From contig NZ_JAFKRG010000019.1 in assembly GCF_019038415.1 (NCBI RefSeq), positions 1-64,000 of the forward strand: a DNA stretch of 64,000 bases, given 5' to 3'. Of this stretch, positions 24,629 to 37,384 are shown in pieces. Within the stretch, counting starts at the first letter, position 1; each line of letters opens with the position of its first letter. The DNA comes from Synechococcus sp. CCY 9618. GTDB taxonomy: Bacteria; Cyanobacteriota; Cyanobacteriia; PCC-6307; Cyanobiaceae. The position numbers and the translations under genes were made by a program. The notes under the pieces were generated by a model, which made no database searches, was not told the DNA's origin, and worked only from the letters and a program-made list of their open reading frames with translations.

Positions 24629-24676
24629 TGCCTGCGCCGACCTGGATCGCCTGCCCCGGGGACAGGGTTGCGCGCT

Positions 24677-24715
24677 GATTCCCGGTTCTGTACACCTTGT
24701 ACAGAACCGGGAATC
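24677..24715. repeat. Perfect 18-bp inverted repeat with 3-nt spacer
   Basis: The arm GATTCCCGGTTCTGTACA (24677-24694) is matched exactly by its reverse complement at 24698-24715, around CCT. It lies 48 bp after the HEAT gene and about 50 bp before the TPP aptamer. No T run follows on either strand, so it is not a standard terminator. It could be an operator, a T-less terminator hairpin or the trace of a small mobile element. Confidence 0.9.
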
Positions 24716-24753
24716 ATTGCTGTGGAGCCCTTGTCCCCGTTCAACCTTGCTAG

Positions 24754-26346
<1,593 letters not shown>

Positions 26347-31375: not shown

Positions 31376-31410
31376 ACGCCGGCGCTCCAGCTGGCCTCCC
31401 ATAAGCTCAT

Positions 31411-31438
31411 GCCCGGCGCCTGTGCCGGGCTTTTTTTT
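31411..31438 (+). terminator. Rho-independent terminator of psaC
   Basis: GCCCGGC (31411-31417) pairs with GCCGGGC (31424-31430) around a 6-nt loop and is followed by eight T. It lies 35 bp after the psaC stop and 40 bp before the glmS start. Confidence 0.93.
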
Positions 31439-31477
31439 GCCCCGCCGCCCCCGTTCCCCCGCCGGATTTCTGCTCCT

Positions 31478-33376
<1,899 letters not shown>

Positions 33377-33377
33377 G

Positions 33378-33459
33378 GCCGTCGGGCCGCGGACGCCCTG
33401 CGGCGGGCGAGCCCGCTGGCGCGGGCAACGCCGCCTGCGGGCGTCCGCGGCCCGACGGC
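33378..33459 (+). repeat. 82-nt structured element, copy 1 (after glmS)
   Basis: Arm 33378-33398 (GCCGTCGGGCCGCGGACGCC plus C) is exactly complementary to 33439-33459 over 21 bp. The 40-nt core at 33399-33438 begins TGCGGCGGGCGAGCCCGCTG and contains a hairpin GCGGG-CGAG-CCCGC and a second GC-rich hairpin around GGGCAACGCC. It starts 1 nt after the glmS stop. No T run follows. The 33460-33661 stretch beyond it holds no gene, only a 12-bp palindrome GCTCCGCGGAGC at 33521. Confidence 0.9.
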
Positions 33460-33661
33460 GCCTGGGGGTAGGGGGTTGAAGGGCTGGCAGCTCCGGGGCT
33501 TCAGCGGCTCTGGTCCGCGAGCTCCGCGGAGCGCTGGATCGGCTGCGGGCTGGCGGGGCCACGGCCAGCGTTTCGTGCCTGGCAGATCCCCTGGCCGGGC
33601 TTATGCAATCCCTGGTGCCAGATTCCTCTCCCTTCCTCCTCCTCCCGCACCTGCCCCCTGC

Positions 33662-33743
33662 GGTGCTTCGCTGACACCGGCCGAAGGCGGGCGTTGCCCG
33701 CCCAGCGGGCTCGCCCGCCGCAGGCCGGCGTCAGCGAAGCACC
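33662..33743 (-). repeat. 82-nt structured element, copy 2 (after manC)
   Basis: Read on the minus strand, the arms (33723-33743 and 33662-33682, 21 nt with one mismatch; GGTGCTTCGCTGAC outermost) are unrelated to those of copy 1. The 40-nt core (33683-33722) shares the first 21 nt exactly with copy 1 and nearly all of the rest, with offsetting 1-nt indels. Its second hairpin, GGCGGGC-AAC-GCCCGCC, is perfect. It begins 2 nt after the manC stop, in the direction of manC transcription. Confidence 0.9.
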
Positions 33744-33745
33744 CC

Positions 33746-35197
33746 TCAGGAGGGGATCAGGGCCGGCGCATCACTGCGCCCATAGCGGTCGTCGAAGCGC
33801 ACGATGTCGTCCTCGCCCAGGTAGGGGCCGCTCTGCACCTCGATCAGCTCCACGGGAATCTTGCCCGGGTTAGTGAGGCGGTGGCGGGAGCCCAGGGGGA
33901 TGTAGGTGCTCTGGTTCTCCCCCACCAGTTCCTCCACCCCGTCCTTCTCCACCACGGCCGTGCCCCGCACCACCACCCAGTGCTCGGCGCGGTGATGGTG
34001 CATCTGCAGGGAGAGGCTGGCGCCGGGCTTCACCGAGATCTTCTTGACCTGCCAGCGCTCCCCTTCCACCACGCCGTCGTAATGGCCCCAGGGCCGGTAG
34101 ATGCGGCGGTGGGCCCGGCTCTCGGGGGCGCCGTCCCGCTCCAGCCGGCCGACGATGGCCTTCACTTCCTGGGCCCGGTCGCGGTGGGCCACCAGCACCA
34201 CGTCGTCGGTCTCGACCACCACCAGATCCTCCACACCCAGTCCCACCACCAGCCGGTGCTCGCTGCGCAGGTAACAGTTGCGGCTGCCTTCGCTGATCAC
34301 CCGGCCCCGCAGCACGTTGCCCTCCAGGTCCTGTTCGGAGGTCTCCCACAGGGCCGCCCAGCTGCCCACGTCGCTCCAGTCGGCATCGAGGGGCAGCACC
34401 ACGCCCCGGTCGGTCTTCTCCATCACGGCCACGTCGATGGCCACGTTCGGGCCATTGGCGAAGGCCTCCCGCTCCAGTCGCAGGAACTCCAGGTCGGCGC
34501 TGTCGTGCTCCAGGGCGGTGCGACAGGCGTTCACCACCTCGGGGGCGAGTCGATCCAGTTCCGCCAGGATGGAACTGGCCCGGAACAGGAACATGCCGCT
34601 GTTCCAGGTGAAGCGGCCGGTGGCGAGAAACGCCTCGGCGGTGGGGCGATCCGGTTTCTCCACGAAACGGGCAATCGGCACCGGGATGGCGGCCAGGGGC
34701 TCGGCGGCCTCGATGTAGCCATAGCCGGTTTCCGCGCTGGTGGGCACGATGCCGAAGCTGACCAGCTGGCCTGCGGTGGCGGCGGCCATGCCGGCGGTCA
34801 CGGTGGCACGGAAATCGGCCGCCCGCCGGATCACGTGGTCAGCGGCCAGGATCAGCAGCAGGGGATCGTCGCCGCGGGAGGTGGCCTGCAGGGCGGCCAC
34901 CGCCACCGCCGGAGCGGTGTTGCGGCCCACCGGCTCGAGCAGGATGGCCGCCGGCTCCACACCGATCTGGCGCATCTGCTCAGCGACGATGAAGCGATGG
35001 TCTTCGTTGCAGATCAGCAGCGGCGGCGCCAGGCCGGGCAGGCCCTGCAGCCGTTGCTGGGTCTGCTGCAGCAGCGTTTCCTGGTCCGTGCCGGCCAGCG
35101 GCCAGTACTGCTTGGGGTAGCTGGCGCGGGACAGGGGCCAGAGGCGGGTTCCGGTGCCGCCACAGAGGATCACGGGAACCAGGGAGGGGGAAGCCAT
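33746..35197 (-). CDS. manC: Mannose-1-phosphate guanylyltransferase / mannose-6-phosphate isomerase
   Basis: Bifunctional 483-residue enzyme giving GDP-mannose for polysaccharides. The N-terminal nucleotidyltransferase has VPVILCGGTGTRLWPLSRASYPKQ, LLEPVGRNTAPAVA and FVEKPDRPTAEAFL. The C-terminal cupin isomerase has WGHYDGVVEGERWQVKKI, LSLQMHHHRAEHWVVVRGTA and NQSTYIPLGSRHRLTNPG. It probably supplies the glycosyltransferases seen elsewhere in the window. Confidence 0.96.
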   Translation of the reverse strand: MASPSLVPVILCGGTGTRLWPLSRASYPKQYWPLAGTDQETLLQQTQQRLQGLPGLAPPLLICNEDHRFIVAEQMRQIGVEPAAILLEPVGRNTAPAVAVAALQATSRGDDPLLLILAADHVIRRAADFRATVTAGMAAATAGQLVSFGIVPTSAETGYGYIEAAEPLAAIPVPIARFVEKPDRPTAEAFLATGRFTWNSGMFLFRASSILAELDRLAPEVVNACRTALEHDSADLEFLRLEREAFANGPNVAIDVAVMEKTDRGVVLPLDADWSDVGSWAALWETSEQDLEGNVLRGRVISEGSRNCYLRSEHRLVVGLGVEDLVVVETDDVVLVAHRDRAQEVKAIVGRLERDGAPESRAHRRIYRPWGHYDGVVEGERWQVKKISVKPGASLSLQMHHHRAEHWVVVRGTAVVEKDGVEELVGENQSTYIPLGSRHRLTNPGKIPVELIEVQSGPYLGEDDIVRFDDRYGRSDAPALIPS

Positions 35198-36028: not shown

Positions 36029-36208
36029 ATGGCCAGCCTCCCGATCCTGCCCGGCTCCACCGTGGTGGTGCGCGACCCCCGCTCCATCTACAACGGCTAT
36101 CAGGGCTTCGTGCAGCGCATCAGCGGAGCCATGGCCGCTGTGCTGTTCGAGGGAGGCAACTGGGACAAGCTGGTGACCGTGCCCCTCAGCACCCTCGAGC
36201 AGGCCTGA
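36029..36208 (+). CDS. ndhS: NAD(P)H-quinone oxidoreductase subunit S
   Basis: A short SH3-like protein that forms part of the ferredoxin-docking site of cyanobacterial NDH-1. [54 protein letters not shown] is the whole conserved region, shown here in pieces: [16 protein letters not shown] and [13 protein letters not shown] 36029 gives 59 residues; in-frame ATGs at 35993 and 36005 would add 8-12 more. The 3' end overlaps convergent rnc by 23 bp. Confidence 0.9.
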
Positions 36209-36941
36209 GCTCCAGCGCGGCCAGGGCTGCCCGGGCCGCCTGCTGTTCGGCCTCCCGTCGGGAGCCCCCGCGGCCCTCACCGCTGAGGCCGGCCGCCAGC
36301 ACCCTGCATTCGAAGCGCTCCGGATCGCCATGCACTCGGCTCCGCTCCCGGCAGCTGTAGGTAGGCAGCCCCTGGCCCTGACCCTGGCTCCATTCCTGCA
36401 GGGCCGATTTCCAGTTGTGGCGCAGGGGGTCGGCCAGAAGCTCGGCGGCGCTGCGCTGCCAGTGGGGGCTGAGCCAGCGCTGCACGACCCCGAGGCCCCC
36501 CTGCGCGCCGCCCCCCAAGGTGTAGATCGCTCCCACCAGGGCTTCGCAGCATTCGGCCCGCACGGTGGAGCGGCCGGCCTGGTCCCCGGCGGCCATCGGC
36601 CCGAGCAGCAGCCGGGGTTCGAGGTCGATGGCGACGGCCAGGTCATTCAGCCAGCGGTCGCTCACCAGCTGGGCCCGCAGGGAGGAGGTGTCCCCCACGC
36701 TCAGGGAGGGATGGTGGCGGCCCAGGAACTCGGCCGCCGCCAGGCGCAGCACCGCATCGCCGAGGAACTCCAGCCGGTCGTGGTGGCGGTGCAGGCCGGT
36801 GGAGCTGTGGGTGAGGGCCTCATCCAGGGTGGCCAGGGCGGTGGCGGCGTCGCCCGGGTCGGTGGGCAGAAATCCGGATGCGGCGCCGAGCCCCAGGCTG
36901 TCCAGAAAGGCCAGGAGCTGCCGGCGGCGCTGGGGTGTCAT
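36186..36941 (-). CDS. rnc: Ribonuclease III
   Basis: Double-strand-specific RNase for rRNA and mRNA processing. The 251-residue protein has the nuclease signature HDRLEFLGDAVLRLAAAEFL and the second acidic motif RAECCEALVGAIYTLGGG, then a dsRNA-binding domain (PLRHNWKSALQEWSQ... GGSRREAEQQAARAALAAL). In the second motif the catalytic Asp of the usual LADxFEALIG is a Glu, and the Glu before RLEFLGD is an Asp. It follows rnpB by about 15 nt on the same strand. Confidence 0.93.
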   Translation of the reverse strand: MTPQRRRQLLAFLDSLGLGAASGFLPTDPGDAATALATLDEALTHSSTGLHRHHDRLEFLGDAVLRLAAAEFLGRHHPSLSVGDTSSLRAQLVSDRWLNDLAVAIDLEPRLLLGPMAAGDQAGRSTVRAECCEALVGAIYTLGGGAQGGLGVVQRWLSPHWQRSAAELLADPLRHNWKSALQEWSQGQGQGLPTYSCRERSRVHGDPERFECRVLAAGLSGEGRGGSRREAEQQAARAALAALELRPARGC

Positions 36942-36954
36942 CGCGGGGGCAAGG

Positions 36955-37384
36955 GGGGAAAGCAGGACGTAAGCCGGGTTCTGTTCTCCCCTGCCCTCGG
37001 CGGTGCCGGCGGCAGGGGGGGTGATCATCTGTCTGGGACCGCCGTTACCGGCGGCCTCGAGCGGCGCATGGGAATCGGGACGGGGAAGATGGCCAACCGC
37101 TGTCCCTGGGCCTTGCTCCCAGCCGGGGTTTACCGAGCCGGCACCTCTCGATGCCGCTGGTGCGCTCTTACCGCACCCTTGCACCCTTGCCTGTGCACCG
37201 GGCAGGGCGAACCTGTCCCGGGAGCCATCGGCGGTGTGTTTCTGTGGCACTGTCCTCACGGTCACCCGCACTGGGCGTTACCCAGCAGGCCTGGCCATTG
37301 GGGAGCCCGGACTTTCCTCAACCGGCCGCGGCGGTTGCCCGAGGGCGACGCCGCACCGATCGCGATCACCTCGCCTGCTTTCCA
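36955..37384 (-). ncRNA. rnpB: RNase P RNA, type A (cyanobacterial)
   Basis: The catalytic RNA that trims tRNA 5' leaders. Read on the minus strand it contains GAGGAAAGTCCGGGCTCCC, the GGGTGACCGTGAGGACAGTG / CCACAGAAA core, GGTAAGAGCGCACC and CAGAACCCGGCTTACGTCCT. Helix P1 is a perfect 10-bp pairing of GGAAAGCAGG (5') with CCTGCTTTCC (3'). Ends are placed from P1 and may be off by a few bases. Confidence 0.97.

Follow-up and report, generated by a model that had tools for sequence, protein, structure and literature searches.

A small family of gene-end hairpins with a shared tip and locus-specific stems in several genera of one cyanobacterial family

Gene-end hairpins and short palindromic repeats

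The described structures that most resemble the elements considered here are the I-shaped terminators, which, in the WebGeSTer classes (PMC8355165 and PMC7406221), are stable sense hairpins that lie just past a stop codon and have no U-tract. I-shaped terminators form a class defined by shape, whereas the present elements have a conserved tip, internal loops and a stem of about 33–36 bp that are common to unrelated genes and genera. They too are stable hairpins without a U-tract near stop codons, a comparison to which the stem limit of 12 that PMC7406221 used with the WebGeSTer database was not applied, and in its working the element appears closest to an I-shaped terminator, but one whose tip is conserved. 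Canonical Rho-independent terminators are likewise GC-rich sense hairpins at gene ends, but the stem of the present elements is far longer, the tip is conserved and a T-run is mostly absent.

Short palindromes are also found as repeats. The REP, BIME and REPIN sequences are often downstream of genes and facing one another, and are possible RNA elements; REPs, as PMC3733652 describes them, have stems of 5–13 bp, a GTAG or CGTC tag and mostly 20 to thousands of units. In contrast, the elements have stems of about 33–36 bp that are specific to each locus and occur in 1–5 copies, and inspection of alignments A2, A4 and A6 by eye showed no conserved GTAG or CGTC tag at the stem base. The NEMIS, ERIC and YPAL repeats form transcript hairpins beside genes, and NEMIS transcripts have been proposed as RNase III targets, but these repeats have terminal inverted repeats common to their copies (PMC2229807), whereas in the present family each locus has arms of its own and it is the centre that is common. 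The same feature sets the elements apart from MITEs, which are defined by many copies with common terminal inverted repeats; here the arms are private and a genome gives 1–5 matches. The small dispersed repeats of Nostoc (Elhai 2008) are reportedly tiny multi-copy cyanobacterial repeats found inside other structures; by description they resemble this family in size and setting and differ from it in copy number. The attC sites of integrons are imperfect hairpins at stop codons in which structure is kept over sequence, with conserved boxes at the base and a variable tip. By eye the elements have the reverse layout, a conserved tip on a variable base, and they accompany chromosomal housekeeping genes.

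No family of Rfam (release 15) covers the elements at its curated gathering score, the best sub-threshold hit being to a microRNA family (24.6 bits against 77.5), and no description of such an element was found in the open-licence papers searched. The family is new to Rfam, and on at least one tested feature it departs from each of the definitions of REP, MITE and canonical terminator.

The elements behind glmS and manC

The window is the whole stretch of 64,000 nucleotides of Synechococcus sp. CCY 9618 that was analysed. Direct reading of its sequence shows two elements of 82 nt each, at 33378–33459 on the plus strand and at 33662–33743 on the minus strand. The first follows glmS (31409–33376, plus strand, start codon not settled), an open reading frame with the Pfam domains GATase_6 and SIS, and begins 1 nt after the stop codon at 33374–33376. 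The second follows manC (33746–35197, minus strand), an open reading frame with the Pfam domains NTP_transferase and MannoseP_isomer, and begins 2 nt after the stop codon at 33746–33748. In the glmS element a locus-specific 5' arm (33378–33398) forms 21 of 21 Watson-Crick pairs with the 3' arm (33439–33459), and the two enclose a conserved core, or tip, at 33399–33438. The manC element, on the minus strand, consists of a 5' arm at 33723–33743, a core at 33683–33722 and a 3' arm at 33662–33682, with 20 of 21 positions paired and a G-T at the remaining one. The two 40-nt cores are identical over their first 21 nt and thereafter differ by one substitution and two 1-nt indels that cancel out in length. 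Neither element has a T-run 3' of it in the sequence, and hence neither has the U-run that directly follows the stem of a canonical terminator. The original prediction had made this same description of paired 82-nt elements with complementary 21-nt arms and a common core, lying 1–2 nt past the stop codons in the sense of the gene and with no T-run after them, and it was confirmed at both genes.

Folded with their flanks, the glmS element reaches −85.5 kcal/mol (z −6.39) and the manC element −88.1 kcal/mol (z −9.39), with none of 200 shuffles as stable in either case. When the plus strand is folded in 90-nt pieces at 10-nt steps, they rank as the top two stability sites in the window. In a scan for near-perfect arms the glmS element scores 21 against a best of 14 in 329,473 sampled bases of the same genome (20 stretches, about 11% of the genome). 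Each element is predicted to fold as one continuous hairpin that contains internal loops; the earlier suggestion that the core could fold as two hairpins carried on the outer stem was consequently rejected. The glmS element is followed at once by G-tracts (GGGGG TA GGGGG TTGAA GGG, 33464–33483, plus strand) and the manC element by a G-rich tract (33630–33658, minus strand), neither of which is claimed as part of a mechanism.

Two genes of RNA metabolism are found close to manC on the minus strand. The frame of the RNase III gene (36186–37271; Pfam Ribonuclease_3 and dsrm) is separated from manC by rimM, and the RNase P RNA (Rfam RF00010) occupies 36955–37381. As the full-length RNase III frame overlaps rnpB, its true start is probably further in. 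Elsewhere in the window, a 19-bp perfect inverted repeat with a 3-nt loop (24676–24716) lies just upstream of a TPP riboswitch (24759–24875, plus strand).

Size and spread of the family

The glmS and manC hairpins are members of a small family that recurs at a limited, common set of gene ends across several genera, all within a single cyanobacterial family. Three covariance models, R1, R2 and R3, were built from 10, 41 and 67 elements, and these score the glmS element at 75.6, 70.6 and 68.7 bits and the manC element at 90.2, 86.8 and 83.2 bits, respectively. A search of the source genome with the exact core returns no others, and in sister species it finds copies at glmS and manC as well. By covariance models the genome carries four, the others lying behind atpG (contig C13, 25555–25635) and dps (contig C9, 200216–200297), and one extra match (19 bits, E 5.7) was given by R2 only. 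The original prediction would have been refuted by a lack of further copies in the genome or by their random placing, and neither was the case: the atpG and dps copies are in sense at gene ends.

R1, built from 10 sequence-aligned elements of glmS and manC, matched 18 of 42 genomes of the genus at E ≤0.5, two of these only above 0.2, and brought in new sites behind dps, atpG and a gene with a NYN domain. R2 matched 32 of 201 genomes of the bacterial family at E ≤0.01. R3 matched 52 of 400 such genomes, in 9 of 59 genera, with 1–5 matches per genome at E ≤0.001, a few of the match rows being the opposite strand of the same place. With R3, stricter filters and many draft genomes among those searched, 348 of the 400 genomes gave no match, from which it follows that the element is dispensable. 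Hairpins may be under-counted in draft genomes, since in G132 (L148) and G113 (L138) the contigs stop in or just after the glmS element, that of G132 inside the tip.

Among 292 genomes sampled from across the phylum, three hits are members of the family and one is a palindrome. The latter, from genome G482 in another cyanobacterial family (L111, 1505–1577), is perfect, with 35 bp per arm and the tip GCCCGC-TAC-GCGGGC; it is without the AAC loop and was judged unrelated. A search of 84,980 species genomes for the exact core returned 15 hits, 12 of them cyanobacterial, with records from Cyanobium spp. (Cyanobium sp. Cruz-8D1 included), Synechococcus spp. BO 8801 and CCY 0621, Microcystis elabens FACHB-917 and Aphanothece saxicola among them. 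The other three, two actinobacterial and one from Xanthomonas, are by eye without long complementary arms.

A set of 77 elements was assembled from the 67 of alignment A6 (E ≤7.5e-7) and ten weaker matches. It excludes the manC element of G113 (L007), the tipless glmS hairpin of G090 (L058), the second atpG hairpin of G140 (L097, 2210–2293), and the dps pair of G045 (L112 and L113), as well as loci present twice and matches to the opposite strand of hairpins already counted. The second hairpin of G140 is a strong one, about 90 nt past the first, and its two strands score nearly alike.

Anatomy and covariation

Inwards from the locus-specific stem, the element has an internal loop and a middle stem of about 6 bp; a second internal loop then leads to the 6-bp tip stem, which is closed by a loop of 3–4 nt. 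The near-continuous stem amounts to about 33–36 bp in all. The first internal loop is often CUKCG on both strands. The middle stem covaries, one of its pairs being GC or CG in a ratio of 47:20. The 3' strand of the second internal loop reads AAC or AAU and rarely AAG, GAC, GAU or CAU. The tip stem is mostly GCCCGC paired with GCGGGC, and its exceptions covary. The outer arms are the least conserved sequence, and in the 67-element alignment all 17 modelled arm pairs covary.

Changes on both sides with pairing kept are seen at 17 of 33 pairs among the 10 sequence-aligned elements and at 23 of 30 pairs among the 41 sequence-aligned elements. The latter have 88.8% of cells paired, against a shuffled mean of 69.3% and at most 46% with slid partners, the structure used in this test having been written by hand from the 10-element result together with inspection. 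With the 67 model-aligned elements the figure is 29 of 30 pairs, in an alignment that was fitted to the structure and leans that way.

The 5' arm has a median length of 21 nt (quartiles 19–24, range 8–47) across the 77 elements. The proposed arm length of 21 nt thus holds for both window elements and as the family median, but not as a rule for the family. A fixed ruler of 81–82 nt was rejected for the same reason, element length being moreover partly made by the model; only the tip has a near-fixed layout.

Position and orientation at gene ends

Sixty-three of the 77 elements, five of these assigned separately on the manC side, are in sense and lie 3' of the stop codon of the abutting gene. 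Four (L047, L083, L084 and L089) are antisense to the abutting gene. The remaining ten are turned towards dps (8) or ndhF (2) from the far side, and no gene was found to end next to them on their own side; these ten include L100, which by one assignment is antisense at 35 nt. Measured from the end of the stop codon, the median start of the element is at 1 nt for glmS (15), −3 for dps (23), −17 for ndhF (4) and +18 for atpG (4), whilst most manC elements start at −10. The stop codon is often inside the stem. In the facing pairs that were inspected, the two elements are 22–202 nt apart.

The held-out set comprised 21 of the 23 loci that were new in the 400-genome search. Seventeen of these 21 are in sense, with the stop codon −17 to +68 nt from the element, behind ndhF (8), atpG (4), glmS (2), a small gene family with no Pfam domain (2) and one unnamed gene, so that 16 of the 17 are at a gene already on the list. 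Of the remaining four, one lies beside atpG on the opposite strand, and three are facing or without an assigned gene. The recurrence of these genes is partly expected, since the loci were found with a model that already contained ndhF, atpG, glmS and dps elements. A 94-aa protein of the Pfam-less family, which ends near RCWVRQQ, has no Pfam hit.

The possibility that these are ordinary GC-rich terminators, whose tips are alike by chance or composition, can be weighed at this point. A GC content of 0.64–0.89 per element favours palindromes of any kind, and R3 did pick up the unrelated perfect palindrome of G482. Against this are the fold z-scores, the stability rank within the window and the arm-scan score, top scores of 60–90 bits with the family models, the cyanobacterial origin of 12 of the 15 exact-core hits and the gene-end positions of the held-out elements. 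Chance likeness is accordingly very improbable.

Orientation bears on a second alternative, namely that the element acts in DNA, as a cruciform or single-stranded hairpin bound by a recombinase, gyrase or a nucleoid protein, with a layout like that of REP/BIME or attC. Either orientation is tolerated at times, as shown by the four antisense and ten facing elements, neighbouring elements face each other, and behind dps in G037 (L168) the tip is apparently inverted and the 3' arm decayed. This inverted tip, together with the four antisense elements, suggests occasional inversion between the arms. The sense bias, at 63 of 77 and 17 of 21 held-out elements, does not fit such a role, nor does the lack of any conserved unpaired tag or end motif in the alignments, the outer arms being the least conserved part. 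Action at the level of DNA is therefore quite unlikely.

The same gene ends in related genomes

Comparison of the glmS end was made over the best 30 loci of the genus, out of 38 genomes with a match. Thirteen of the 30 carry a full element, and in G132 the contig ends within the tip. In G090 (L140) the arms are perfect and most of the tip is gone, which is read as a deletion because a piece of the core is kept, and in G175 only a remnant of the 3' arm is present. Other long perfect hairpins with other tips are found in G062, G212 and G214, the tip of G212 being found also in the separate genome G211; in G220 there is a 15-bp hairpin, and in others, G187 and G231 among them, no long hairpin was found. 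Hence, a long stem is common behind glmS, the tip varies by lineage and can be lost, and the whole structure can be absent. The tipless arms and the hairpins with other tips indicate that it is the long stem that tends to be retained at this site.

The glmS-end hairpins of G211 (L195), G212 (L196) and G214 (L158) have arms of about 22–26 bp and a second type of tip, CGCTCGC..GCTCGCT. A pattern for this second tip, with up to 3 mismatches, matches 6 of 42 genomes of the genus. Two of the matches correspond to the glmS hairpins of G211 and G212; the others are one that neighbours an element in G203, those in G220 and G226, and one in G214 (L197) that folds without long arms and is distinct from the glmS hairpin of that genome. 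A hairpin of G203 (L194; contig C17, 25586–25612, minus strand), with arms of about 22 bp and a loop of 9-nt tandem repeats, CACGCTCGC, faces a family element about 150 nt away. Behind dps, nine of 30 loci from the bacterial family have a sense element (E ≤0.1) and G087 has a long hairpin without the family tip, the end motif used in this comparison having missed two of the 30.

How the arms can differ so much and stay complementary is suggested by elements whose 5' arm enters the gene. Behind ndhF (L082, L088 and L091) the coding end is repeated in inverted form as the 3' arm, and behind dps (L053) the arms run a further dozen or so nucleotides into the gene, with the 3' arm again an inverted copy. 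In G175 a different gene follows manC, and the 3' arm of the element there (L005) matches that gene's own end. This gene encodes 344 aa, lies between manC and the element, has no Pfam hit at the cut-off and has its stop inside the 5' arm; an open reading frame with a similar end occupies the same place in G204 (L060). At ndhF and dps the constraint on the coding side allows the direction of copying to be deduced, and these genes offer a natural case of arms that are rewritten in step.

Template switching during replication is reported in PMC8794818 to create and mend hairpin stems, and the copying of coding ends into 3' arms is as such switching would make it. The covariation could then arise in this way alone, without selection, and is weaker evidence for selection than it looks.

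Relationships among the cores

Raw similarity between cores is 0.769 within a genus at different loci, 0.697 at the same locus in different genera and 0.693 where both differ. With one mean per genus and locus these values become about 0.658, 0.71 and 0.677, respectively. A genome-wide concerted evolution of the cores, for which the raw count had seemed to speak, was rejected, as that count rested on many sequences of one genus (g1) and the effect vanished with equal group weights. By permutation the cores show no clustering by genus (p 0.81–0.83) and lean weakly to locus (p 0.077–0.085). Neighbouring pairs have similarities of 0.839 (g1) and 0.743 (g47) for glmS and manC, 0.827 for a dps pair (g30) and 0.743 for an ndhF pair (g47), and a dps element compared with a dps-facing one from a different genome gave 0.586 in g48. 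Local conversion could explain why several facing neighbours are alike, and the identity of the glmS and manC cores over 21 bases may have the same origin.

It had been proposed, as one of two possibilities, that the core is small and mobile and inserts into hairpin loops. The 40-nt core would then be of the MITE or small-dispersed-repeat kind, landing beside stop codons or in the loops of terminators, with arms that are target sequence or copied flank. The same tip at unrelated genes, the facing pairs, the likeness of neighbours and the patchy presence within a genus are what such an element would produce. However, a genome has only 1–5 matches, these recur at the same few genes across several genera, and the cores lean to locus, if weakly, with no clustering by genus. 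Moreover, no empty site with intact arms was seen, as the arms of G090 keep core remnants and what is left behind glmS in G175 is a remnant of one arm. Mobility of the core thus finds little favour and is improbable.

T-runs and G-runs

A T-run of 4–6 is found at the stem base of six of 98 elements, all at atpG, five of them in sense and one on the other strand. These six are among nine atpG elements inspected, and have the layout of a canonical terminator topped by the family tip; in L098, on the plus strand, a T-run lies about a dozen nucleotides past the element. The other 92 of the 98 have no T-run at the stem base, from which it is concluded that the majority do not qualify as canonical terminators. 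PMC7406221 reports that transcripts with U-tract-less hairpins have shorter half-lives in Synechococcus sp. PCC 7002 than those with a U-tract.

Of 62 sense elements, 48 are followed by a G-run of at least four within 40 nt; the control, 40 other gene ends of the window, has 11, but it comes from this one window, and the related elements are not independent. The same run is found at five of the ten facing and one of the four antisense elements, and one of the 77 was short of 40 nt of flank. In the held-out set G-runs are found at 10 of 21 elements and C-runs at 8 of 21; a hairpin with a G-run as a new type of terminator is weak there and is not claimed.

A possible role at the 3' end of transcripts

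Position, direction and the recurrence of the same genes point to the 3' end of transcripts, and we infer that the elements are transcribed and act as RNA. It is suggested, with a probability of roughly 0.6, that they are 3'-end hairpins that would terminate transcription, or set and protect the mature 3' end, or both; most likely the hairpin marks or protects the end of the mRNA. The original prediction of a 3'-end RNA module is supported by the gene strand, the position at the stop codon, the presence at the same genes in other genera and the covariation. The ends of the glmS and manC messages would fold as a very stable hairpin, at which transcription may end or the 3' end may be set and protected. 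The outer stem would provide stability, for which any sequence suffices as long as it is paired. The conserved tip, with its AAC internal loop, 6-bp stem and tight loop, is probably bound by RNA polymerase, by a nuclease such as RNase III or by an RNA-binding protein. Template switching during replication would recopy one arm from the other, so that the arms may differ between loci and species and yet stay complementary.

The main alternative, which overlaps with a 3'-end role, is that the hairpin is an RNase III site, at which the duplex would be cut, with the internal loops steering the enzyme, to set mRNA 3' ends after read-through. The predicted near-continuous stem of about 33–36 bp with internal loops is in its favour, as is a gene for the enzyme in the same window. 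Although that gene lies so near, its presence says little, since RNase III is near universal. Nor would cleavage alone explain the conserved AAC loop. The NEMIS repeats of Neisseria are a described precedent (PMC2229807). On balance, a role principally as a cleavage site seems unlikely, though less so than the other alternatives.

Returning to the 3'-end reading, a bolder form of it is tentatively put forward for a lineage that has no Rho. A trans-acting factor may recognise the tip at the end of a long stem of arbitrary sequence, and so bring about the termination or processing of selected transcripts, the stem being continually rewritten by template switching; this form is speculative and rather doubtful. 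If true, the tip-reading factor would amount to a sequence-specific 3'-end signal unlike the U-tract hairpin.

Cyanobacteria are without Rho, and a study of 2026 (PMC13289151) reports canonical-like intrinsic terminators at only 22% of transcription-unit ends in Synechococcus elongatus PCC 7942, thereby leaving most ends in that strain unexplained. A gene-end hairpin with a shared tip, found in several picocyanobacterial genera behind named housekeeping genes, is a concrete candidate for a 3'-end signal.
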